The notes beneath the pieces were generated by a model. It worked only from the letters and a program-made list of their open reading frames with translations. It ran no database searches and was not told the DNA's origin. Positions 47,401-63,977 of a DNA stretch of 64,000 nt are shown here, piece by piece. How positions within the stretch are numbered: position 1 is the stretch's first letter; every line of letters starts with the position of its first letter. The translations under genes were made by a program, and so were the position numbers. This DNA is from Candidatus Izemoplasma sp. (GTDB taxonomy: Bacteria; Bacillota_I; Bacilli_A; Izemoplasmatales; Izemoplasmataceae), in contig JAXKVY010000002.1 of NCBI GenBank assembly GCA_036172455.1, positions 186,001-250,000 of the forward strand. Reading direction: 5' to 3'.

Positions 47401-49770
47401 TTAATAATCTCTAATAATCGCATCAATATTACTTTTAAGACCTTTGACAATCGCATCAACACGTTGGTCAACGTCTTTTGTTTTAAGCGTTTTATTCTCG
47501 TCAGTAAATGTAAGACGAATAGTTAATGATTTTTGATGCGCTTCAAGGTGCTCACCTTGATATAAATCAGTAATCTCAACATCTTTTAATAATCGTTTAC
47601 CATCTTTTTGAATTTGATCAACTAATCTATTAGCGGTAACTTCTTCAGTAACAATAACCGATAAATCACGCGTCACTTCAGGATATTTATTTATCGCTTT
47701 CGCACTCCTTAATACCCGTCTATAGTCATAAAGACGTAATAGATCCAGTTCGAAGACATACGTATTTTCTAAGTCATGCTTTTTAGCATATTCAGGGTGA
47801 AGTTTTCCTAAAAATCCAACTTCGCCTTGATAATCTTTAATGATGGCTGTTTGACCTGGATGACATTCTTTATATCGATTTGTTGGTTCAAATGTTAAAT
47901 GGGATAAACTCAACACCTCAAACAAACTGTTTAAAATACCTTTTACAGTAAAGAAATCAATCTCTTCAACTTGTCCTTGCCAACTTATGTGGGACAAGTT
48001 ACCGGTTAAAACACCACTTAAGATTTCATCTTCACCATCTTTTGCATAAGACTTTCCGAGTTCAAATAGTCTAATATCTGTTTGTTTACGGGCATAGTTG
48101 TATTTTGCTACTTCCAACATATTAGGTAACTGACTTAACCGTAATACGGACTTGTCCGCACTCATTGGTAACTGTAATTGAACTGGGGTGTCATGTTCTA
48201 CTGTAAACTCATGAACTCGTTCTATAGACGTTAATGAATAGGTAACGACCTCGGTTAATCCAAGATGCGCTAAGGTGTGTTTGATGGTGCGTTTAAATTG
48301 TTGGTAATCTGTCAATTTACCTTGATTAATGGTTGTTGGCAAGGTTACAGGTAGTTCATTATACCCCAAAATACGTCCAATTTCTTCAATGATATCTTGG
48401 TATGTCTCAATATCCTGGCGTCGCGTTGGGACATGAACAATGATCATTTGATCTTTTTCTGACAGATTAAAATGTAATCGCGTTAAAATTGTCTTTATCT
48501 CTTTATCACTTAAACTTGTTCCTAATGTCTTATTGACAAGCTCTGCGCTGATTGAAATCAACAATTCTTTATGGGATGTATTATCGACTTTTTGTATTCC
48601 TTTTAACACATCTGCGTGCGCATATTTATTAAAGTAATGTGTCGCTAGTTCTAAGGCGTATTGTGTCCGTTTAGGATCTACTTTACGCTCAAAACGCATC
48701 GATGCTTCACTACGAAGATTTAAACGCGATGATGTTTTTCTGATATGTGTTGGATCAAAGACCGCACTCTCTAAAAGAATTCGTTTTGTACTCGATGAGA
48801 TTTCAGTATCATACCCACCCATCACACCACCTAGTGCGACAGCCTTTTTCCCATTCGTTATCACAATATCATCGGTTAATAATTGCCGTTCAACTTCATC
48901 AAGGGTGCGTAGTGTTTCTCCGTGTTTAGCCAAGCGAACATCAATTGTATCACTGTCTAATAAATCATAATCAAAAGCATGTAACGGTTGACCTGTCTCT
49001 AACATAACATAATTTGTAATGTCAACCACATTATTAATTGGACGAATCCCAGCGGCAATTAAACGTGATTGCATCCAACGTGGTGATGATTTTATTTGTG
49101 CATTTTCTAAGACTCTAGCGTAGTAACTCATGCATTGGTCTGTCGATAATTTAATAGTGACATCGTTCGGTTTATCAATTTCATCCACACGAATCTCTTT
49201 TAATGTAATCGGCTTTTCTAAAATGGCGCTCACATCATATGCAACACCCATCATGCTTAATAAATCAGGACGATTTGGTAAAATGTCAATCTCTATAACT
49301 TGATCATCTAACGCCATAACAGAAAGCGGGTTATCCCCAGGTTCGCATGTTTCTTGAATGACGTGGATACCACTCGCATCCGCATACTTTTTGTCGATAC
49401 CCAGTTCAGGCAAACTACAAATCATCCCATTGCTTTTTACGCCACGAATAGTCGATGATTTAATTTTAAAATTCCCCGGTAAGACTGCGCCCGGTTTTGC
49501 GACAATGACCATTTGTCCAGCCTGAACATTTGGTGCCCCACACACAATTTGTTCTGTAGAATCGCCTAAATCAACTTGGCAAACACTTAATTTATCCGCA
49601 TTTTCATGCGCTGTTTTTTCTAACACTTTTCCGACAGTTAATTGATTAGCATTGACTAATTCTTTTACCGATTCTACTTCTGCGGAATGTATATTAAATA
49701 GATTTGCTAAAGTGTCTTTATCAATGGCCACATCAACAAAGTCTTTTAGCCAATTTAGTGAAATATTCAT
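47401..49770 (-). CDS. pheT: Phenylalanyl-tRNA synthetase beta subunit
   Basis: A 789-residue protein of normal length for the bacterial beta subunit. Domains in order: N-terminal tRNA-binding EMAP-like domain (about 40-150), B3/4 domain, B5 domain, the catalytic-like core, and the C-terminal anticodon-binding ferredoxin-fold domain (about 695-789, YPEVTRDLSVIVTEE). It forms the alpha2-beta2 enzyme with PheS. Unusually it is separated from pheS by a hydrolase gene; its start overlaps the end of that gene by four bases, so all three are co-translated. Confidence 0.96.
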   Translation of the reverse strand: MNISLNWLKDFVDVAIDKDTLANLFNIHSAEVESVKELVNANQLTVGKVLEKTAHENADKLSVCQVDLGDSTEQIVCGAPNVQAGQMVIVAKPGAVLPGNFKIKSSTIRGVKSNGMICSLPELGIDKKYADASGIHVIQETCEPGDNPLSVMALDDQVIEIDILPNRPDLLSMMGVAYDVSAILEKPITLKEIRVDEIDKPNDVTIKLSTDQCMSYYARVLENAQIKSSPRWMQSRLIAAGIRPINNVVDITNYVMLETGQPLHAFDYDLLDSDTIDVRLAKHGETLRTLDEVERQLLTDDIVITNGKKAVALGGVMGGYDTEISSSTKRILLESAVFDPTHIRKTSSRLNLRSEASMRFERKVDPKRTQYALELATHYFNKYAHADVLKGIQKVDNTSHKELLISISAELVNKTLGTSLSDKEIKTILTRLHFNLSEKDQMIIVHVPTRRQDIETYQDIIEEIGRILGYNELPVTLPTTINQGKLTDYQQFKRTIKHTLAHLGLTEVVTYSLTSIERVHEFTVEHDTPVQLQLPMSADKSVLRLSQLPNMLEVAKYNYARKQTDIRLFELGKSYAKDGEDEILSGVLTGNLSHISWQGQVEEIDFFTVKGILNSLFEVLSLSHLTFEPTNRYKECHPGQTAIIKDYQGEVGFLGKLHPEYAKKHDLENTYVFELDLLRLYDYRRVLRSAKAINKYPEVTRDLSVIVTEEVTANRLVDQIQKDGKRLLKDVEITDLYQGEHLEAHQKSLTIRLTFTDENKTLKTKDVDQRVDAIVKGLKSNIDAIIRDY

Positions 49771-50474
49771 GATATCTCCTCCTTCAGATAGTCATCGATC
49801 GTATGGATGACATCGTTGCGCACACTTTTATCAAAGAATAAGAAATGACTCGAATCCACTTTGTAACGTCTAAATGGTACATCCCCCATACTTTTTTCAA
49901 TTTGATCGATTGACTTTTTCTTCACTAACTCATCTTTAGTAGTTTCAATCACTAAGGTAGGTACATTAATCATTTTTAAGTACCGTTTAGTATAGTGAAG
50001 ATATAACTGCAAATGCCAAATATGAATCTTTGGCACTAAGACAAAACGTCTTATAAACTCTTTATAAAAAATTTCTTGAACACGGGTTAACTTTTTAGAA
50101 TGGGCTAAGCTTGAACTGAGACCTTTTAAAAACTTTCGATAATTGGGATTCTTAACAATCGGTGCGATTAATACGACTTTATCTACACGATGGTTTCTAG
50201 CCGCTAAAATAGCTGCGGTACTCGCGCCTAAAGAATACCCAATCAAGTAAACATTTCTAAAGCCTTTTTGGTTAATCACTTCCGTAGTTTCATCAATAAA
50301 TTGAATGAAGTCTTTCGTTTTTGCTTTAGGGAAATAGTTTCCAACAAATGCCCCTGGCATGATACCTGGATAATAGACAAAATACTCATCATTCTTCTTT
50401 AAATAGTTATATAAGCCACGTAATTCGCCACCAGTTGTCCCAGCGCCATTGATAATAACAACTAAATCTTTCAT
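49767..50474 (-). CDS. Alpha/beta hydrolase inserted between pheS and pheT
   Basis: A 235-residue alpha/beta-hydrolase. The oxyanion start is [14 protein letters not shown], the nucleophile elbow is [10 protein letters not shown] (G-x-S-x-G), the acid is in [11 protein letters not shown] and the catalytic His in [10 protein letters not shown]. It looks catalytically complete; the substrate is unknown, though esterase, lipase or thioesterase action would fit. It overlaps both pheS (ATGA at 50471-50474) and pheT (49767-49770) by four bases and so is tightly built into the Phe T-box operon. A D-aminoacyl-tRNA- or ester-cleaving proofreading role is only speculation. Confidence 0.85.
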
Positions 50475-51508
50475 GACTTAAATTGCTTGTTAAAGCGTAA
50501 ATCATTGGTATAAAATTGACGTATATCGTTAATCTTATACTTTAACATCGCAATTCGTTCCACTCCTACACCAAAGGCAAATCCTTGGTACACACTACTG
50601 TCATAGCCACTGGCTTCTAAAACATTATTATTAACCATACCAGCACCTAATACTTCTATCCATCCGGTGTGTTTACAAATATGACATCCTTTTCCATCAC
50701 AGTTATGACAGCTAACATCGACTTCAACACTTGGTTCGGTGAATGGAAAATAGGAAGGACGTAAGCGAATATCACGATTTTGTCCAAACATCTCTCTTGC
50801 GATGACGAGTAATGTCCCTTTTAAATCCGCCATGGTTGTATCTTTATCAACCACTAGCCCTTCTATTTGCATAAATTGATGACTATGCGTTGCGTCATCT
50901 TCATCTCGTCGATAAACTTTGCCAGGGCATATAATTTTAACAGGTTCTTTACCGCCCTTATCAAGCATTGTTCTAACTTGTACTGGTGATGTATGTGTTC
51001 TTAATAACAATGTGTCATCAATATAAAAGGTATCTTGCATGTCTCTTGCGGGATGATCTTTCGGCAAATTCAGTTTCTCGAAATTATATTCATCAATTTC
51101 AATCTCTGGTCCTTCCATCACTTCATACCCCATACCAATGAAGACATCTTCTATCTGATCTGTTATTTGAGTAAGAAGATGTGTTGTCCCTGGATGAAAC
51201 ACTTTTCCTGGCATTGTCACATCGACGGTTTCTTCTTCAATCTGTTTTTGTACTTCTAAATCATGAAGTTCTTGTCGCTTCTCGTCTATCCAGGTTTGAA
51301 TATCACGCTTAGCAAGATTGGTTTCTTTTCCAACAACTGGGCGTTCTTCTTTAGACAAGTCTTTCATCGATTTCATAATATCATTAAACGCACTTTTCTT
51401 TCCTAAAAATTTCGCTTTAATGTCATTTAGATCTACCATTGTTTGCGCTTGGTTAATGGCTTTTTTGGCCTTCTCTTTAATTGAATTTAACCGTTCTTTA
51501 ATGGCCAT
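50471..51508 (-). CDS. pheS: Phenylalanyl-tRNA synthetase alpha subunit
   Basis: A 345-residue class II aminoacyl-tRNA synthetase subunit. The N-terminal coiled coil is followed by motif 1 (near [15 protein letters not shown]), motif 2 ([14 protein letters not shown], then [20 protein letters not shown]) and motif 3 ([13 protein letters not shown]). A Cys4 zinc-like loop [15 protein letters not shown] lies at about 268-282. I choose ATG 51508 over an upstream in-frame GTG, since AAGGAG stands eight bases before the ATG. The Phe T-box upstream controls the operon. Confidence 0.96.
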
Positions 51509-51535
51509 AATTGTCACTCCTTTGTCTTATTGTAA

Positions 51536-52589: not shown

Positions 52590-52825
52590 TTCTAACACTC
52601 CCTTTTTTGAAATCGTTGATTATTATATCATATATTTTTTTAAAAGTCATCGCTAAACATTCAATAACTCATATTGATTTTCTTGTTTTCTGTAAAACTC
52701 TACGATATAATATAAATGAAAAGTGTAATATACATCACGAATACATAGATTTGGTGTGTATTGTTTTTTTATTTAAAATTTTTATGAAATAATAGATATG
52801 TACAAAAAAATGTGAGGTTGATGTT

Positions 52826-55800
52826 ATGCCACAAGGATTAAACTACGAACTATATTTTAATATTGCATTCTTTGGTGTCATTGGACTAGGCTTCTTAATC
52901 GGGTATTTTCGAGGGCTGAAAAAGACATTGTACAACTTAATTGTGCTTGTTCTTTTCTATGCCTTCTTTTTTATTACGATTGATGCCGTTGTCGATGCCC
53001 TTTGGGTCTTAGAAATGCCAAGTGTCTTTGATATGGCAGCGCCCTATGTTCCAGAACTTTCCGGTGTTACGACACTCGGTAATGCCGTATTTACACTTGT
53101 AGAAACATATGCAGGTAGCTATGTTGGTGATACAATGAGCAATGATGTATTCATCTCGTTTGTCACGGGAATATCGCTATTTGTTGTGAAGATAATATAT
53201 GCGATTGTATACTTTACTATCGGACAAATTGTGTTCCGCTTTATCGCGTATGTCATTCGTGTCTTATTCTTCTCAGGAAGCAATAAAGAGGTTATTCTAG
53301 ACTATAATGGTGAAGAACGTACATTAAAAGGCAAAAAAGACCATAAAAAGTACCGCAAGGAAGAAAAACGTCATCGGAAAGACATGAAAAAAATGGTTAA
53401 ACAAATGTCACGAAAAGAAAAACGCCAACATAAAAAAGATCAAGCCAGACTGGCTAAGGATCAAAAGAAATTTGCGAAAAAACAAAAAATCAAAAAGAAA
53501 AAACCATTACTTGGTGCGTTTGCCGGTGCTGCAAAAGGTACAGTAAGTGCGTTTGTTGGGTTGATCATGCTTGGTGGTATGCTAAATATCACAGAAAGCT
53601 TCTTAGTCTTATTACCTGAAGAAACAACTCAAACAGCCCAAACCATTGAAACAATCTATTTGGCCAATGATTATAATCCATATGATCCCCTATATCAAAA
53701 CAATATCTCGCCTGAGCCGATGGCGACAGGTTTAATTGATATCCCAACAAATATGCAATCGACCATTACAGAAACACGTAATATGATTGATGGCTACAAC
53801 AACAACCTATTTGTTGAATACGCTTATAAAGTGACTTATACGGATGAAAATTATAATGCCCAAGTACCGTTAAACTTATATTTATTTGACACCGTCTTCT
53901 CTTTCTATATAGAAGAAGATAAAGTTTTATTACGTAATGAACTTGATACTATGGCTGAAACAGCCAATATTTTACTGAGTTCAGATTATAGACAAACAAA
54001 CGATATCAGTGACATTACAGGTGATGAAGTCACAGCTTTATTCGTTACCTTATCTGAAAGTAAATTTGTCACATCAATGATTCCACTGGGAATTGACATT
54101 GCAAGTGGCTATTTTGAAACCCCATTAGAGATACCAACTGAGGATTTATATGCCATTGATTGGGCGAGTGAATTATCTACTTTGGGTGCAGTAGCCGGGA
54201 CTGGTTTTGATTTAATCAATACGGCCGGCATTATGAATGATGATACAGATTTAACTACTGTCACATTAGATGGTACAGAAGTCAAAGACTTATTCGATTC
54301 ACTTAGCCAATCAGAAATAGCGACACTAGCTGCCTACGTTGCTCTCGAGCCATTATTAGAACGTCAAAGCGGACAATTAAGTGCCGTTATCACGGTACCA
54401 CAAGGCGTGACATGGGAAAATGAATATCAAGCTTTTGGTGAAGTTGCTAAAGCCGTATTAGATACGAATATTACTGTAGGTCAACTTCAAGCAGGGGATC
54501 CGAATGTTTTAATAGGTGCTTTATCAGACATGGACTTCACCGTTTTACTACAATCAGAAATTGTAAGCCACGCACTAAAAAACATCTTTGATGGAACCGC
54601 AGGTATTGAGGGACTTGATGTCATTGTTGTACCCGATGGTGTGAATTGGTTTGATGTGTATGACAATGATGGCAACTTACAAACTGCCGGAGAGTTACGT
54701 AATATATTAGAAGCCGTCAATGCCATTACTAATGTGGCAGAAGACTTTGACTTTAATAATATTAGTCTCGATGTCATCGCAAACTTCGATGACCCAACAA
54801 TTGATACCATCTTTGATTCAGAATTACTGGTTGCGACGATTAGTGATTTCTTACTTAATATGGATTTAGGAACCACACCATTAATCATTCCTGACAGTGT
54901 GTTAGATGCGAATAACTATTTACTCGCGTCAGAACTTAAAAACGTGGCAAGTGCAGCTACAGTTCTTGTCAATGATTTAGCGTGTGATGAAGGTGACACA
55001 GTCTGTGAAGAACAAGGCTTTGATATTGCCAAAGCATTTAGTTTAAGCGACACCTCTATTAATACCTTAACCACATCAGATATTTTATCCGCTACGATAG
55101 GTAATATTATCATCGATCAAGGTGGCAGTATTTTAACTGTGCCTAACAGTGCATTAACCACAATTAGCGTTGATGGTGTCAATCAAGATGTTGTCAGTAA
55201 AACTGAAATCAGCAAATTATTCCAAGCAGTGGGTGTTTTAGGTTTCACTGACCTGGAAAATATGACATTTGATGCCTCAATTATACAAAATCTTGGCACA
55301 GACGCTGATCCTACCATTTTAGACACAACAAAATCTAACACACTATTTGACTCAAAGCTTGTCCATGCGACGCTCTCACAAATGTTATTTGAACAAGCAG
55401 AAGGCGCAAGTGCAATATTGACTGTCCCTTATTTCACAGAAACAGGCGGAAACGTCATTATTGAAGATACACAAGATAGCCTAAACTATGTTGCACAAGC
55501 AGAATTAAATGCCATGCTGCAAAGTTTATTAACGTTGAATATTACTGATTTTACCGCTGTCGATAGTTTAGATTTAACTGAAGTCATTGCAGATGCAGAT
55601 ACCTTATTAGATTCTTCCATCTTACATGCGACTATTTCAAAACAAATCTTTGATTTAGGCACTGAAACGATTAAAGTCCCATATGAAGACGTTGATACGA
55701 ATCCAATCCGAATTACTGTCGGCGATACAAATGATAGTACCGATACTGAATATATTACTGAAGATGAAATAATCGCTATACTAGATGCATTAGAGATTCT

Positions 55801-58171
55801 TGGTATTACAGACTTTGATACATTTACAGGATCAATTGATCTTGCTAGTATTACAAGTGATCCTAATAATATTATTACAATGCTAGATAGTGCAACATTG
55901 CATGCGACAATCTCGGATCAATTAATCGATCAAGATACCGCAGGTAATATCTCAATACCACATTTTGCTGAAGATAACAGCACAACTATCCGTTTACTCG
56001 TTGGCCCAAGTGGTAATGAAACAGAGTTTATTAGTAAAGATGAAATAGAAGCTATAATAGATGCCCTTAACATTTTAGGATTAACAGATGTTGGGTCATT
56101 TGATGGTGCGATTGATCTAAGTACTATTTACGACCCAGATGCCACAACTCCTGTGGATAACAGAAGTGAGTTTCTAGCATCTTCTACCATTCAAGCAACC
56201 ATCTCTAAACAAGTCATTGATTTAGAATCTACTGCCACAACGGCATTTGTTGTTCCTCATTTCGCAGAAGATGACACAACAAAAATACGTGTTGCTGTCG
56301 GAGATCCACTGAATAATACGGATACAGAATATATTACTAAAGCAGAATTAAGTGCTGTATTTGAAGGCATGGATTTACTCGGTATCACAGACGTGACATC
56401 ATTTAATGGAAGCATTAACCTAACAACATTCTTTGATGAAACAAAACGTAATACCTTATTAGCATCATCGACAATGCAAGGAACTATTTCTAAACAGTTG
56501 CTAGATTTAGGTGATGGAACATTACGCATACCATCTACAGATATTGACAGTGTTGCTGTTAAAATAGATGTTGGAAATGCAGGAGATAATACCGACTTCA
56601 CCTATGTTTCTAAAACTGAAATAGGGGCGATGTTTGAATCACTTGAAGTACTTAATATAACCGATATCAATTCATTTACTGGTTCAATTAATCTATCAAA
56701 TATATATGATGATACAAATCAAGATGTATTATTAAATAGTGCCGCTATGCATGCAACTATTACAAAACAAATGGTTGACTTAGGCGATACCTTCTTGAAT
56801 GTTCCGGATGTAGATGTGAATAATAATGTCATTCAAGAAACAGTCAATAGTACTTTATTTATTGTAAAGGATGAAATCAAAGCTACCATTGAAGCATTAG
56901 AAGTCTTAAACATTTCGGATATAGGAAATGTGGATGGAACATTTGATTTTACCTTAATCTCTAATACAACTAATCAAGATATTTTACTCGGCAGTGCTTC
57001 TATACACCGTACAATCACGGATAAAGTGATTGCTTTAGATGACACAGATAATCTTGTTATTGTACCAAACTATACACAAGATGGGGAAACTGTTGGTAAT
57101 GAAATCCGATTAACTGTTGCGCCTGAAGAGTATATTATTAAAGAGGAAATTAAAGCGCTTATCGATGCCTTTACAGCAATGGGTTATAGCAACCTAGACA
57201 CCTTTGGTGCTGAACTTAATTCAAGTGAATTCTTTGCTGAAAGAGATACGATTTTACTCTCCTCAATACTTCAAGCTACTTTATCAAACAAACTCTTAAA
57301 TACTTCAGGGGGAGATACCTTAGTTATCCCTGATGTAAACGTGAACACTAGTGACACAATACGTATTGTACAAACGGATGTCACTTATGTTAATAAAACC
57401 GAAATTGATGCGATTATGGATGGGTTAGAAGAAATGGGATTAACGGACTTTGGCGCTTTAACATTTGATCCTACAACCATCTTTGCGGCTGACTTTAATA
57501 TCGTTTTAACAAGTGCTTCACTACAAGCAACCATTTCAGGTAAAATTTTACCTACTGCAGGGGATGAAACAACACCAGTTGGAACAACAACATTACTCGT
57601 TCCAACAGAATTTAGAGAAGCAATCCATGTAAATAGTGTTGGCGATACGCACATTGAAAAAGTTGAACTAATACGATTGCTTGAATCGCTAGAAGTCCTT
57701 GGTGTTAGTGACTTTAATGGCGGTATGAATGCATCGACTATTACATCAATGAGTGACACTGATTTAACGACTTTATTAATTAGTTCTAGTGTTCATACAA
57801 CACTCGATAATATGTTAAGAGGAAATGCTAATATTGCTTCAGACATTCCTGCTTTAGCAGAAAACACATTCAGTTATGCCGGTACCCTAATAACTAGAGA
57901 TGAAATTAAATACTTTATTCAAGCTACACAAGAAGTAACCACTGATTTCACCAGTGTATCATTCGACTTAAGTACGCTAAATAGTCTAGATGCAGCTGGA
58001 CAAGATACAGTTGCAACAAGTATGATTGTTAGAAATATAGTCACACCTGAAATCGTTGGCCCATATGAAACAATTAATGGTGCTGATAGTTATCCAGATA
58101 CTGAGTATATGAATAATGATGATACAACATTCTTAACCAAAGATGGTGTTCTCAACCCAGTTACACCTTAA
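52826..58171 (+). CDS. Giant membrane protein: CvpA-like anchor plus about 14 degenerate repeats
   Basis: A 1781-residue protein. Four hydrophobic segments in the first 150 residues (about 11-27, 34-52, 108-130, 131-150) resemble a CvpA-type domain; then a very Lys-rich cytoplasmic loop (155-225), a last membrane segment (about 228-252), and roughly 1500 residues that should lie outside. The outer part is built of repeats of 84-96 residues, each with a motif like S-x-x-x-HATIS-K-Q-x-x-D (nucleotide positions near 54835, 55090, 55365, 55627, 55902, 56190, 56478, 56751, 57005, 57273, 57525, 57793) followed by x-VP, YI-x-K-x-E-I and ALEIL-x-I-x-D. No LPXTG, no enzyme motif. The family is unknown to me; adhesion or envelope structure is a guess. 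Confidence 0.8.
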   Translation: MPQGLNYELYFNIAFFGVIGLGFLIGYFRGLKKTLYNLIVLVLFYAFFFITIDAVVDALWVLEMPSVFDMAAPYVPELSGVTTLGNAVFTLVETYAGSYVGDTMSNDVFISFVTGISLFVVKIIYAIVYFTIGQIVFRFIAYVIRVLFFSGSNKEVILDYNGEERTLKGKKDHKKYRKEEKRHRKDMKKMVKQMSRKEKRQHKKDQARLAKDQKKFAKKQKIKKKKPLLGAFAGAAKGTVSAFVGLIMLGGMLNITESFLVLLPEETTQTAQTIETIYLANDYNPYDPLYQNNISPEPMATGLIDIPTNMQSTITETRNMIDGYNNNLFVEYAYKVTYTDENYNAQVPLNLYLFDTVFSFYIEEDKVLLRNELDTMAETANILLSSDYRQTNDISDITGDEVTALFVTLSESKFVTSMIPLGIDIASGYFETPLEIPTEDLYAIDWASELSTLGAVAGTGFDLINTAGIMNDDTDLTTVTLDGTEVKDLFDSLSQSEIATLAAYVALEPLLERQSGQLSAVITVPQGVTWENEYQAFGEVAKAVLDTNITVGQLQAGDPNVLIGALSDMDFTVLLQSEIVSHALKNIFDGTAGIEGLDVIVVPDGVNWFDVYDNDGNLQTAGELRNILEAVNAITNVAEDFDFNNISLDVIANFDDPTIDTIFDSELLVATISDFLLNMDLGTTPLIIPDSVLDANNYLLASELKNVASAATVLVNDLACDEGDTVCEEQGFDIAKAFSLSDTSINTLTTSDILSATIGNIIIDQGGSILTVPNSALTTISVDGVNQDVVSKTEISKLFQAVGVLGFTDLENMTFDASIIQNLGTDADPTILDTTKSNTLFDSKLVHATLSQMLFEQAEGASAILTVPYFTETGGNVIIEDTQDSLNYVAQAELNAMLQSLLTLNITDFTAVDSLDLTEVIADADTLLDSSILHATISKQIFDLGTETIKVPYEDVDTNPIRITVGDTNDSTDTEYITEDEIIAILDALEILGITDFDTFTGSIDLASITSDPNNIITMLDSATLHATISDQLIDQDTAGNISIPHFAEDNSTTIRLLVGPSGNETEFISKDEIEAIIDALNILGLTDVGSFDGAIDLSTIYDPDATTPVDNRSEFLASSTIQATISKQVIDLESTATTAFVVPHFAEDDTTKIRVAVGDPLNNTDTEYITKAELSAVFEGMDLLGITDVTSFNGSINLTTFFDETKRNTLLASSTMQGTISKQLLDLGDGTLRIPSTDIDSVAVKIDVGNAGDNTDFTYVSKTEIGAMFESLEVLNITDINSFTGSINLSNIYDDTNQDVLLNSAAMHATITKQMVDLGDTFLNVPDVDVNNNVIQETVNSTLFIVKDEIKATIEALEVLNISDIGNVDGTFDFTLISNTTNQDILLGSASIHRTITDKVIALDDTDNLVIVPNYTQDGETVGNEIRLTVAPEEYIIKEEIKALIDAFTAMGYSNLDTFGAELNSSEFFAERDTILLSSILQATLSNKLLNTSGGDTLVIPDVNVNTSDTIRIVQTDVTYVNKTEIDAIMDGLEEMGLTDFGALTFDPTTIFAADFNIVLTSASLQATISGKILPTAGDETTPVGTTTLLVPTEFREAIHVNSVGDTHIEKVELIRLLESLEVLGVSDFNGGMNASTITSMSDTDLTTLLISSSVHTTLDNMLRGNANIASDIPALAENTFSYAGTLITRDEIKYFIQATQEVTTDFTSVSFDLSTLNSLDAAGQDTVATSMIVRNIVTPEIVGPYETINGADSYPDTEYMNNDDTTFLTKDGVLNPVTP

Positions 58172-58194: not shown

Positions 58195-58542
58195 ATGATT
58201 ATTAATCACATTAAACAAACACAAACTAAGCAAATTGTTAGTGACTTAGTTAAAGATACATCAATTCAAGTTTTAGTTGGTGAAAAAGAAGGGTGGGATA
58301 GCCATGTTATGCGTGTACTTACCGTTGAAAAAGGTGGGCATACACCAAAACATGAACATCCTTGGCCACATATTAATTATGTCCTTGAAGGACATGGTTC
58401 TTTACAGATTGATGATAAACTACATCCATTAAGTCCGGGATCCTACGCTTATGTTGATGCGAACACATTACATCAATTTAAAAATACATCTAACGAACCT
58501 TTTAAGTTTATTTGTATTGTACCAAAAGAAGGACACCAATAA
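58195..58542 (+). CDS. Cupin-domain protein
   Basis: A 115-residue single cupin. The metal-binding motif 1 is GGHTPKHEHPWPHINYVLEG (three His and a Glu) and motif 2 is PGSYAYVDANTLHQFKN. Small cupins of this kind bind a metal and often a sugar or phenolic ligand; no function can be assigned. AGGAGG lies upstream. It starts 23 bases after the giant repeat gene and may be on the same transcript. Confidence 0.88.
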   Translation: MIINHIKQTQTKQIVSDLVKDTSIQVLVGEKEGWDSHVMRVLTVEKGGHTPKHEHPWPHINYVLEGHGSLQIDDKLHPLSPGSYAYVDANTLHQFKNTSNEPFKFICIVPKEGHQ

Positions 58543-59534: not shown

Positions 59535-62500
59535 TTAAAGATTGAATAAATTCATTTGTGAGTCTTCAGGTATGCCCTCAAAGACATCTAACATATCAAG
59601 TTTATTGAATAGTGTTTTTGATAGACTCGTTCTATTTTTTATATCTTCTTGTGTTTTAAAAGGGGCTTCTTCTCTTGCGGCAACAATGGATTGTGCAACT
59701 TTGAGGCCTAGTCCATCAACCGTGATAAACGGTAATAAGAGTTGCTTCTTATCATCTGTAATCTTAAACTCAGTAGCATCAGACGCATTAATATCAATTG
59801 TTTTAAAGCTAAATCCACGTTTGACCATTTCAAGTGCAATTTCTAAAACAGTGTAGACACGCTTGTCACGATCGGATGCACGATTACCTTGCTCATCAAT
59901 GTCATTCATCCGTTTTCTTATTTCATATTCGCCACCTAAAAAAGCGTATATGTCATAGTCACTTGCGCGTTTAGAAAAGTAGGCACTATAGAATAAAATT
60001 GGATGATAGTATTTAAACCAAGCAATGCGTAAAGCCATCATTACGTATGCTGTTGCGTGGGCTTTTGGGAACATGTACTTGATCTTCCCACAAGACCAAA
60101 TATACCAATCAGGAATGTTGTGTTGCTTCATAATGTCCTTATATCCATCCCACTTATCTGGTTGAAATTGTGCTTTTCCTTTACGGATAAACTCTGATAT
60201 TTCAAAGGCGACATCTTCTGGCATATTGTTTTGGATTAAGTAGACCATAATATCATCACGACATCCGATAACGTTTTTAAATGGAATCGTACCAAATCGT
60301 TGATTATGACCTGTAACTAGGTCTTTTGCATTGTTAATCCATACATCTGTCCCGTGTGATAATCCACTGATTTTTACTACATCAGCGAATGTTTTTGGTC
60401 GTGAATCTGTCAACATATCACGGACAAATTTGGTTCCCATTTCAGGAATTCCAAAACTTGCGACTTCACTATTTAAATCCTCTTTAGTCAGTCCAATGGC
60501 TTCTGTCGAGTTAAGCATTCCATAAATATGAGGATCATCTAATGGGATATCTCTTGCGTCTGTAAATGGAAAGTCAATAGGGTGTTCTTTGACATAATCC
60601 ATTAAGTAACGAATCATTGTTGGATCATCATGTCCTAAGACATCTAATTTAAATAAGTTGTCTTCAAAACTGTGATAGTCAAAGTGCGTGGTTCGCCAAT
60701 TACTTGATGTATCATCAGCTGGATATTGTACTGGAGTAACATCATAAATCTCTTTATAAGTTGGCACGACAACAATTCCGCCAGGGTGTTGACCAGTTGA
60801 ACGTCTAACACCAGTAATTCTGGTGGCGCTACGTTGAATTTCGGCGCTACGCATCGTCATATTTTTAGACTCAAGATAGCCTTTGACATATCCAAACGCT
60901 GTTTTTTCCGCAACGGTTGAGATAGTTCCTGCCCGAAAGGCGCGTTCAACACCGAAGATTTTACGTATATATTCATGTACTATAGGTTGATATTCACCAC
61001 TAAAGTTTAAGTCAATATCTGGGACTTTATCGCCTTTAAATCCTAAGAAGGTTTCAAAAGGAATTGAGTGTCCATCTTTGTGAAGTTCTTCGCCACATGC
61101 AGGGCAAATTTCTTTAGGCAAATCAAACCCTGTATCATACCGATCAAGGATTGCTTGTAACGTTTCTTCTTCTTGTGATAACCCATAAGTCATTTTTTGT
61201 TCTTTGGTCATTTTAAATGATGAGAAATGACATTTAGGACAGACATAATGTGGAGGCAAAGGATTCACTTCTGTAATATCCATGAGTGTTGCGACTAATG
61301 AACTTCCAACTGATCCACGACTACCGACTAAATAGCCTTCGTCAAGCGATTTTTTAACGAGTAAATGAGAGATAAAGTAGACTGTAGAGAATTTATTTTC
61401 TGTAATACTTTTAATTTCTTTATCTATTCGGTCTTGAACAAGTTTTGGAACATCATTACCATATATTTCTTTCGCTTTATCGCTAACCATTTTGATGAGT
61501 TTATTTTCAATAGATGGTATGCCTTCTAACGCTAGAAAATCATCGTTAGGGGCATAGAGTTCTTTTTGGAATGCCTTGACAAATTCAATTTTGTTGTTAA
61601 TTAATTGGGTATTTTCTACGACGATTTTATGTGTTGTTTCATCATTTAAAAATGGAAAGGCATCAAGCATTTCATTGGTTGTTCTAAAATACTGACTTGG
61701 AATATTTTTAAAATTCGCAAGTGGGTGTAAGCCACCGCCAACGACAGGTGTTTGAACATAGATGTCTCTGTACTTCTTCTCACTTTTCAAGACATGGTGA
61801 ACATCTCCTGTAGCGACAACGGGAATATCTAATGTCTCGCCAACTTTTATGATATTTTCAATGGCCGTTTGAATGACAGTATTTACATCATCCATGCGTT
61901 CTTCTAAGTAAAGATAATCTTCGAATGGTTGTACTTCTAGAAAATCATAATACTTCGCCGCTTCTAATAAATCATCATATGGTTTATTTTTTGCTATCTC
62001 AAAAAGGTAGCTATTCATGCAGCCACTACCGACAAGTAATCCGTCTCGATGGTGATCTAAAACTGATTTTAGTAGCCTCGGTTCTTTATGAAAATATTTT
62101 GTGTTTGCTAAGCTGACTAATTTATACAGGTTTTTTAATCCTATTTGGTTTGTGACAAGTAAATTAATATGGCTTGGAATAGCATGTTTATAGCCGTCAC
62201 TCCCGTCACTTAACATATTCATTTGATTAACATTCAAAATGCCTACTTCGCGCATATGCTTTAACATATGTAAAAAGATTTCAGCGGTAGCTTTTGTATC
62301 ATAAATAGCTCTATGGTGACGTTCTAGATGAACTTTAAAATAACGGCTAACAGCCTTTAAATTAAACCGTTTCAAGTCATCACCAAAGGCATTTCTTGCA
62401 ATCTGCAAGGTATCGACTGTCGGTAATGGGCCATCATATAAATCATGATCTTTTAGTGATTGATAAATGAATCCCATATCAAAATGGGCATTATGCGCTA

Positions 62501-63977
62501 CCATAATCGTTCCTTCAAAGAATGCTTTAAATTTAGGAATAACCGCATCAATTGTCGGTGCTAAGGCAACATCCTTATTTTGAATTGAAGTTAACTTAGT
62601 GGTTAACATACTGAGTGGTTGTTCTGGATTAACAAACATTGAGAATTCTTCAACAATTTGATTGTTTTTAAGTTTCACTGCCGCAATCTCAATAATTTTA
62701 TCATGTAATACGCTGAGTCCCGTTGTTTCAATATCAAATACCGTATAGACAGCCTCAGTTAAGGGTAAGTCTATTGGATGTTTAATGACATCAAGTTGCC
62801 TTTCATCGATAAATGATAATTCACATCCATAGATCGGTTTAATCTTCTTATCTTTCGTGGCGTTATATAATTCAGGAAACGATTGTACCGTTCCGTGATC
62901 AGTCACAGCTATCGCGTCATGTCCCCATTTCTTCGCTGTTTTCACATAATCTTTCATCGATGTAATACCATCTAATGTCGACATTTTAGAATGTAAATGG
63001 AGTTCAACACGTTTTTCTTTAGCTGTATCTTGACGTGGGTCACGTGTAACAGTGTGATTACTTCTTTCGATTGTAATCGCTGTGACAGTGACTTCTTTTG
63101 AATACTCATCAAAAGAAGCTATTCCGTTTATTTTGGCAAGCATGCCAACTTTTGTTTGTTTCATAAAAGCAAGCTCGTCTTGATTTTTAACAAACTTTTT
63201 AACATAGATTGAGTCATTATCATTTGAAATAATCCACGTAAATAAATGACTTTTTTTACGTGTTACAAAATGTTCGATGTGCGTTATTTCACCTTCAAAT
63301 GCCACTTTGGTGTTATTGTGCATACTTTTATATTCTATAAGTTCTTGTTCCGTAATCGGTATTTCTTCAATTTGATGTGTAATTTTCCGAACTTTCCCGT
63401 CGTTATAGGACATAAAACGCATTGGTTTTTCTTGTTCAATCGTTTCTTCACTTTTGATTGAAAAGTCAGATGCTTCTTTGCTGATTCTATCTTTAATCAT
63501 CGGTGATTTTTCGCATATCCGTGTGGCTAAAATAACGTCAAATCCATAACGTTTAAGTTCTTTTTTAATCTCGTATAACATATTCGTTACAAAAGTCCCA
63601 TCTTTAGGGCATATAACATTAATTTTATTGTTTTCTTGTTCGATTTTAAAATCTAAAATTGCATTGAAACGCGGACGTTCTTTTGCGAGTTTTCTTAAGA
63701 CATAATCATAATATGATTCGATATGATCATGATTGGGTTCTTTATATTCTAATAACAATTCTGTCTTATCACAGTGTGAAAGGTACTTTGGTAATTTTTC
63801 GAATCGTTTTTCAAATGTTTCTAAATGTTCAATTGATAATGGTGCATTAAAACGCACACGAAAAGACCAACAACTGTTAGTCTCATTTATCGTCACATCT
63901 TCGAGTGACCCTTGGTATATATCTGTTTGTTGATGTAAGTCTAGTTGCTCTAAAAGCACACGAAATTCTTTGTTCAT
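59535..63977 (-). CDS. polC: DNA polymerase III alpha subunit, PolC type
   Basis: A 1480-residue replicative polymerase, complete at both ends. Order: N-terminal domains, OB fold (about 215-310), PHP domain start (VELHLHSKMSTLDGI at about 330), an inserted DEDDh proofreading exonuclease (YTVFDIETTGLS at about 415, ending near 580), PHP remainder, polymerase core with zinc finger (CPKC ... CPAC, about 910-965) and the catalytic Asp pair in PDIDLNFSGEY, then HhH/C-terminal duplex-binding regions and the QMNLFNL end that resembles a beta-clamp-binding motif. GGTGG precedes the ATG. PolC is a hallmark of low-GC Gram-positives and Mollicutes. Confidence 0.98.
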   Translation of the reverse strand: MNKEFRVLLEQLDLHQQTDIYQGSLEDVTINETNSCWSFRVRFNAPLSIEHLETFEKRFEKLPKYLSHCDKTELLLEYKEPNHDHIESYYDYVLRKLAKERPRFNAILDFKIEQENNKINVICPKDGTFVTNMLYEIKKELKRYGFDVILATRICEKSPMIKDRISKEASDFSIKSEETIEQEKPMRFMSYNDGKVRKITHQIEEIPITEQELIEYKSMHNNTKVAFEGEITHIEHFVTRKKSHLFTWIISNDNDSIYVKKFVKNQDELAFMKQTKVGMLAKINGIASFDEYSKEVTVTAITIERSNHTVTRDPRQDTAKEKRVELHLHSKMSTLDGITSMKDYVKTAKKWGHDAIAVTDHGTVQSFPELYNATKDKKIKPIYGCELSFIDERQLDVIKHPIDLPLTEAVYTVFDIETTGLSVLHDKIIEIAAVKLKNNQIVEEFSMFVNPEQPLSMLTTKLTSIQNKDVALAPTIDAVIPKFKAFFEGTIMVAHNAHFDMGFIYQSLKDHDLYDGPLPTVDTLQIARNAFGDDLKRFNLKAVSRYFKVHLERHHRAIYDTKATAEIFLHMLKHMREVGILNVNQMNMLSDGSDGYKHAIPSHINLLVTNQIGLKNLYKLVSLANTKYFHKEPRLLKSVLDHHRDGLLVGSGCMNSYLFEIAKNKPYDDLLEAAKYYDFLEVQPFEDYLYLEERMDDVNTVIQTAIENIIKVGETLDIPVVATGDVHHVLKSEKKYRDIYVQTPVVGGGLHPLANFKNIPSQYFRTTNEMLDAFPFLNDETTHKIVVENTQLINNKIEFVKAFQKELYAPNDDFLALEGIPSIENKLIKMVSDKAKEIYGNDVPKLVQDRIDKEIKSITENKFSTVYFISHLLVKKSLDEGYLVGSRGSVGSSLVATLMDITEVNPLPPHYVCPKCHFSSFKMTKEQKMTYGLSQEEETLQAILDRYDTGFDLPKEICPACGEELHKDGHSIPFETFLGFKGDKVPDIDLNFSGEYQPIVHEYIRKIFGVERAFRAGTISTVAEKTAFGYVKGYLESKNMTMRSAEIQRSATRITGVRRSTGQHPGGIVVVPTYKEIYDVTPVQYPADDTSSNWRTTHFDYHSFEDNLFKLDVLGHDDPTMIRYLMDYVKEHPIDFPFTDARDIPLDDPHIYGMLNSTEAIGLTKEDLNSEVASFGIPEMGTKFVRDMLTDSRPKTFADVVKISGLSHGTDVWINNAKDLVTGHNQRFGTIPFKNVIGCRDDIMVYLIQNNMPEDVAFEISEFIRKGKAQFQPDKWDGYKDIMKQHNIPDWYIWSCGKIKYMFPKAHATAYVMMALRIAWFKYYHPILFYSAYFSKRASDYDIYAFLGGEYEIRKRMNDIDEQGNRASDRDKRVYTVLEIALEMVKRGFSFKTIDINASDATEFKITDDKKQLLLPFITVDGLGLKVAQSIVAAREEAPFKTQEDIKNRTSLSKTLFNKLDMLDVFEGIPEDSQMNLFNL

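Follow-up and report, generated by a model that had tools for sequence, protein, structure and literature searches.

CvpA is a common membrane family without a settled function, and the membrane part of the mycobacterial protein MarP also bears this label. In MarP (Rv3671c), four N-terminal helices precede a periplasmic C-terminal domain, which is a trypsin-like protease (PMC4992679). Giant repeat proteins are known from a different setting, the wall-less bacterium Mycoplasma mobile: its Gli349 protein, the leg used in gliding, has 3183 residues and runs from an N-terminal transmembrane segment through 18 repeats of about 100 residues to a foot at the C-terminus (PMC7052211). Little is settled about how free-living bacteria without a wall arrange their surface.

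The window analysed here is a 64,000-nucleotide stretch from Candidatus Izemoplasma sp. (positions 186001–250000 of contig 2; genome size 1.69 Mb, completeness 99%). It encodes a 1781-residue protein with features of all three systems. The protein shares with CvpA (PF02674) the TM1 motif GxxRG(L/F), the later segments, and LGAxxG before the last helix; with MarP, four N-terminal membrane helices (predicted here) followed by a putative extracytoplasmic domain; and with Gli349, compared by description, the plan of a giant, here putative, surface protein in a wall-less bacterium, with N-terminal anchor, repeats, and distal foot. It also differs from each. Canonical CvpA proteins in its relatives have about 245–260 residues and no long outer part, whereas the giant adds an outer part of 1500 residues and has a Lys-rich loop of 77. 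The MarP protease is part of the chain, whereas the trypsin-like lipoprotein found at some related loci (family f3) is encoded by a separate neighbouring gene. Gli349 has a single N-terminal transmembrane segment and no CvpA domain; the window protein has a predicted four-segment, CvpA-type anchor. No publication describing these proteins was found in the literature. The points that this analysis adds are how large the family is, the confirmation of its kinship with CvpA, a rule of conserved array ends, and the lack of any fold match for the repeat.

Membrane anchor and orientation

The features of the gene are collected in Table 1. Hydropathy fits four membrane segments, after which a further 1500 residues follow. 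Searched alone, the window protein receives no CvpA call from Pfam or NCBIfam (PF02674, 10.1 bits; curated cut-off, 29.3). PF02674 does match several giant homologues, one of which, the G046 homologue, exceeds the cut-off (30.3 bits, with neighbours), and with a limit of E 0.01 it recognises the N-termini of 16 of 41 homologues (best, 4e-9). When a profile of the giant N-termini is compared by hhalign with seven CvpA proteins from these genomes, the score is 97% (E 9.5e-11, 175 columns); the alignment spans all membrane segments and skips the Lys-rich loop. On this sequence evidence, the CvpA kinship of the predicted membrane domain, proposed in the first-pass annotation, is confirmed at the family level. 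The Lys-rich loop described there is equally real, with 33.8% Lys (K+R 33 vs D+E 11). It is long in the window protein, L031, L033, L034, and L052, and short in most other homologues.

Table 1. Features of the giant gene and its downstream neighbour, in window positions
Feature	Position	Strand	Basis
Whole gene, CvpA-anchored repeat protein	52826..58171	+	ATG start, 1781 aa, code 11
Weak Shine-Dalgarno-like GAGGT, 7 bases 5' of ATG	52814..52818	+	read from sequence
TM1–TM3 of predicted CvpA-type domain, residues 9–150, bearing GFLIGYFRGLKK motif	52850..53275	+	hydropathy; G26 and G30 conserved across 41 homologues; hhalign to CvpA
Lys-rich loop, residues 152–228, predicted cytoplasmic	53279..53509	+	composition, comparison with homologues
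TM4 with LLGAFAGAAKG, residues 229–263	53510..53614	+	hydropathy, homologue alignment, hhalign
Juxtamembrane base, residues 264–660, conserved; one weak and two marginal repeat-like units	53615..54805	+	repeat profile, homologues
Base repeats W1–W3, residues 661–925; open the array in nearly all homologues	54806..55600	+	repeat profile, typing
Middle repeats W4–W8, residues 926–1385; class with species-variable number	55601..56980	+	repeat profile, typing
Tip repeats W9–W12, residues 1386–1724; close the array in nearly all homologues	56981..57997	+	repeat profile, typing
C-terminal tail, residues 1725–1781, SMIVRN and TFLTK motifs	57998..58168	+	sequence, hydropathy, homologues
Small cupin gene, 23 bases downstream, AGGAGG before ATG	58195..58542	+	sequence, neighbours

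A structure model of residues 1–665 (three rows; pLDDT 38) has no value beyond the Lys-rich helix, and the four-helix topology is drawn instead from hydropathy, charge, and homology. By the positive-inside rule, the Lys-rich loop and the TM1–TM2 loop (RGLKK) would lie inside the cell and the repeats outside, the orientation assumed from the start; it is read from charge, not from experiment. The outer part (residues 262–1781) is acidic and rich in Thr and Asp, as first described: 12.3% Thr, 10.1% Asp, D+E 245 vs K+R 54, and only 2 Cys. That this orientation is wrong and the repeats are intracellular is highly improbable. The TM3 region (residues 106–150) could fit two helices and so change the parity, in a stretch where the 1–665 model is unreliable. 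The Lys-rich loop would then oppose RGLKK across the membrane, contrary to the positive-inside rule; the repeat part, moreover, is extremely acidic, with 2 Cys per 1520 residues, and the domain that follows the four N-terminal helices of MarP is periplasmic (PMC4992679).

The far end of the protein shows no second anchor of a familiar kind. The tail has no LPXTG and no hydrophobic or membrane segment, and the C-terminus reads TKDGVLNPVTP; a sortase-anchored adhesin would end in an LPXTG motif, a hydrophobic segment, and a basic tail, and the window protein does not have this signature. Instead, the tail looks like a truncated closing repeat. Pfam and NCBIfam find neither an SLH or other wall-binding domain nor a binding domain of known type in the window protein.

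The repeat

A profile built from the protein's own repeats detects 12 repeats in residues 661–1724 (i-E 1e-17 to 3e-34), one weak repeat at 573–646 (6e-4), and two marginal ones at 361–398 and 474–489. The first-pass annotation had counted about 14 repeats of 84–96 residues. The repeats are real, but on these scores the count is better given as 12 clear plus one to three degenerate units, spaced 84–97 residues apart. Motifs like HATIS-x-Q and YI-x-K-x-EI, already remarked on at first sight, recur among them. Mean pairwise identity within the protein is 30% (17–46%). Across 62 repeats from many species, residue S5 never varies, and A10, T11, P27, and E56 hardly do.

Divergence in the DNA is also as first reported: similarity between repeats is limited to short ungapped matches, mostly 60–80% identical, and TRF finds no tandem array, which makes the repeat a protein-level feature.

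Structure prediction of three repeats in a row, a check suggested by the first-pass annotation, gives a confident model. For W4–W6, AlphaFold reaches pLDDT 85.7 and pTM 0.84 with eight alignment rows, drawn solely from the window protein and L031. Each modelled unit comprises a helix pair, a two-strand hairpin, and an additional long helix. The best reading of the outer part is a chain, about 1500 residues long, of α/β units of about 90 residues.

Comparison with known folds and families yields little. Run with the three-repeat model, Foldseek gives no credible hit in the PDB (best E 0.63, probability 0.07) and no match in BFVD (best E 0.2). Several winged-helix structures appear in the Foldseek list, but at E 0.6 or worse and TM below 0.3, and we do not propose kinship with them. 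At the sequence level, no Pfam or NCBIfam family matches consistently over the 62 repeats, and the repeat has no credible PDB sequence match. Searches of Pfam, NCBIfam, PHROGs, and the PDB with the protein and with single repeats return only chance matches, including HDOD (0.029), AuxB (0.035), and UBA-like domains; a designed-protein PDB profile (0.0039) matches weakly, with no passing stretch. EF-hand matches are at E 0.2 or worse, so calcium-binding EF hands are not claimed. Profile search thus assigns the repeat to no known family, just as the charge pattern does not place it inside the cell. The repeat is a candidate new fold.

Conserved ends and an elastic middle

Among named relatives, the closest is a Candidatus Izimaplasma MAG of the same genus (L031/G001; best segment 62% identical). 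Every one of the 12 window repeats has its own orthologue in L031, at 68–88% identity; different repeats, compared between the two proteins, are about 20–50% identical, except for the products of a block duplication in L031. Individual repeats have therefore kept their identity since the species split. The duplication (4-5-4-5) by itself accounts for the two extra middle repeats of L031. Between these genes dN is 0.11–0.22 and dS 1.4–2.1 (saturated), for a dN/dS of about 0.06–0.11: the gene is under purifying selection.

Repeats of 28 complete homologues, which carry 5–26 each, were each assigned the type of the window repeat that they match best; the resulting ends test applies to members closer than the very remote f12, f18, f20, and f22. 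The array opens with window type 1 or 2 in 27 of the 28, and closes with type 11 or 12 likewise in 27. Over 2000 shuffles of repeat order, these start and end counts average about 9–10, with a maximum of 17 of 28. Types 9, 10, and 11 fall among the four final positions of the array in 17/18, 24/25, and 28/28 cases, respectively. Strings such as 1-2-3-...-9-10-11-12 occur in families f1, f3, and f10, which also have in common a tail with SMIVRN or a close variant. In L052 the string is 1-2-3-9-10-11-12, and the middle is absent. Together with orthology and dN/dS, these ends bear out the early impression that the array is old and selected. (One f3 homologue, L043:7519-15894, starts with the base pair of types 1-2 six times over, an alternative way of lengthening the array.)

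A base and tip that are conserved, joined by an elastic middle, best fit a tethered stalk or spacer; most likely the protein serves the cell surface as a structural stalk or a coat element. Our main reading, to which we give a probability of roughly one half, is that of an extracellular rod or spacer, tethered to the membrane, whose tip makes a fixed contact and whose length can evolve. The four-helix, CvpA-family domain would hold the protein in the cytoplasmic membrane, with its basic loop inside; the acidic 1500-residue chain would extend outside, in three sections. The conserved base, consisting of the juxtamembrane part and repeats 1–3, would dock to the anchor. In the middle, block duplication and loss would alter the number of repeats, and this number would set the reach. 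The conserved tip, repeats 9–12 with the SMIVRN tail, would contact a fixed partner: either its own copy or another part of the envelope.

This reading is preferred over an adhesin, whose ligand-binding tip would attach the cell to particles, polymers, or other cells in the manner of Gli349. Conservation of the distal repeats and tail is consistent with such a role, and Gli349, with its repeat arm and foot, provides a precedent (PMC7052211). However, an adhesin that tracks its target is expected to diverge fast, whereas identity of the outer part to the window protein is even, at about 41–58% across taxonomic families, and mostly above that of the anchor. In L083, for example, from another taxonomic family (f10), identity is 47–58% over base, repeats, and tip (base 48%, repeats 1-2 58%, tip 51%) and 36% in the anchor. 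Nor do Pfam and NCBIfam show a known binding domain. We consider an adhesin unlikely.

Distribution and the cell wall

Of 61 relatives of Izemoplasmatales type, 41 carry homologues, which range from 800 to 3163 residues. Among 395 sampled genomes of the class, the repeat profile matches 70 at 1e-5, and a profile that includes remote repeats matches 97 at 1e-4. Remote homologues sharing the anchor are found in several other families of the class. In the remote matches that were opened, the ORFs mostly begin with a GFxRGxxKS-type membrane domain; several (such as L084, L085, L091, and L095) end at a contig end. As judged from these matches, the design is a widespread family of the class and not a one-off. 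The first-pass annotation knew of no family with this design; this holds for the repeat, which has no family in Pfam, NCBIfam, or the PDB, but the design is not unique.

The first membrane segment is absent in frame from two homologues, L123 and L129. In L123:3320-7877 it lies in another frame than the remainder, so this reference gene looks split. The L123 genome is probably that of A. laidlawii PG-8A, and two others are probably A. palmae and A. brassicae. Cultured carriers comprise Xianfuyuplasma coldseepsis zrk13 (G025), Hujiaoplasma nucleasis zrk29 (G040), and probably Acholeplasma laidlawii; the genus of zrk13 is described as non-motile (PMC8397711). Strain zrk29 encodes two giants, one long and one short (L042; 2941 and 955 residues), and zrk13 a single giant of 2342 residues (L034). 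Some Izemoplasmatales genomes, such as G011 and G013, have no match to the repeat profiles, so the protein is not essential to that way of life.

The window's genome has no PF00905 transpeptidase, and the 174 of 395 sampled genomes with a PF00905 match include none from the Izemoplasmatales, in agreement with published work (PMC10868615). The repeat is carried by 23 of the 174 genomes with transpeptidases and by 74 of the 221 without. A strict link to wall loss is rejected on these counts, which follow phylogeny. The 23 repeat-bearing genomes (of 97) that keep PF00905 belong to f10, f20, and part of f18 and f22, and they imply that the protein predates wall loss or does not depend on it. The early suggestion of a wall-less cell therefore suits this host, which lacks penicillin-binding transpeptidases, but the protein is not tied to such cells.

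The same data bear on a surface layer, in which the proteins would form a side-by-side lattice in place of a wall. A host without these transpeptidases, a large acidic repeat protein, and the two tandem copies in family f3 would all suit a lattice. Such a layer is nonetheless very unlikely: Pfam finds no S-layer domain, nothing but a thin membrane is visible in published sections of zrk29 (PMC10470597), the family is present also in transpeptidase-bearing genomes, and its length varies from 5 to 26 repeats.

The tethered rod can be set in a broader history, which we offer tentatively and as clearly less likely than not: an undescribed α/β repeat fold may have formed adjustable-length rods on CvpA anchors, as a general element of the envelope, in walled Bacilli, and may then have become a main exoskeleton-like component in several lineages after their loss of peptidoglycan. 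A large, slowly evolving outer protein with fixed ends and a variable number of middle units on a CvpA anchor is, in any case, a concrete test object both for CvpA function and for the surface organisation of wall-less cells. (In two f1 homologues, L046 and L047, the outer parts are more acidic than that of the window protein: D+E 504 and 553 vs K+R 107 and 68.)

Genomic neighbours and other CvpA proteins

The cupin gene is probably co-transcribed with the giant gene, and within the genus the kept neighbours are this gene and a transporter (EamA-like by eye). In the window, the locus is flanked by ordinary housekeeping genes, a PolC-type DNA polymerase and pheST (59535-63977 and 47401-51517, both on the minus strand). 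In Bacillus, pheST lies near cvpA. As a conserved neighbour of the giant gene, pheST is rejected: other genera have different neighbours.

A distinct arrangement is seen at nine f3 loci (L035–L043). A divergent Trypsin_2 lipoprotein gene is followed by a long giant, a short giant, and a 5'-nucleotidase lipoprotein gene; Pfam identified one example of each lipoprotein cluster. A nucleoside phosphorylase-like gene often lies further along.

Two giant genes between these lipoprotein genes could point to a transport or envelope-stress device, in which an exporter-like or sensor CvpA domain is served by a chain that gathers or gates substrate or organises surface enzymes. E. coli CvpA is required for deoxycholate resistance and has been proposed to be exporter-like (PMC6705877), and extracellular nucleic acids are part of what sustains cultured Izemoplasmatales (PMC10470597). 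Yet the f3 lipoprotein neighbours are not found at the window or f1 loci; the elastic middle suggests length rather than catalysis; and several relatives have separate, short CvpA proteins of the canonical kind. A device of this sort is distinctly unlikely, and a tethered rod or spacer is preferred here as well.

The window's genome encodes a second CvpA protein elsewhere, P0002 (G000:C1:546163-548496; L104:5163-7496; 778 residues; PF02674, 35.5 bits). Like the giant, it joins a CvpA domain to a long outer part, but these 600 residues have no match to the repeat. L106, L130, and L131 keep the same neighbourhood, in which the gene lies after one for a 630-residue protein and another that is O-sialoglycoprotein endopeptidase-like.
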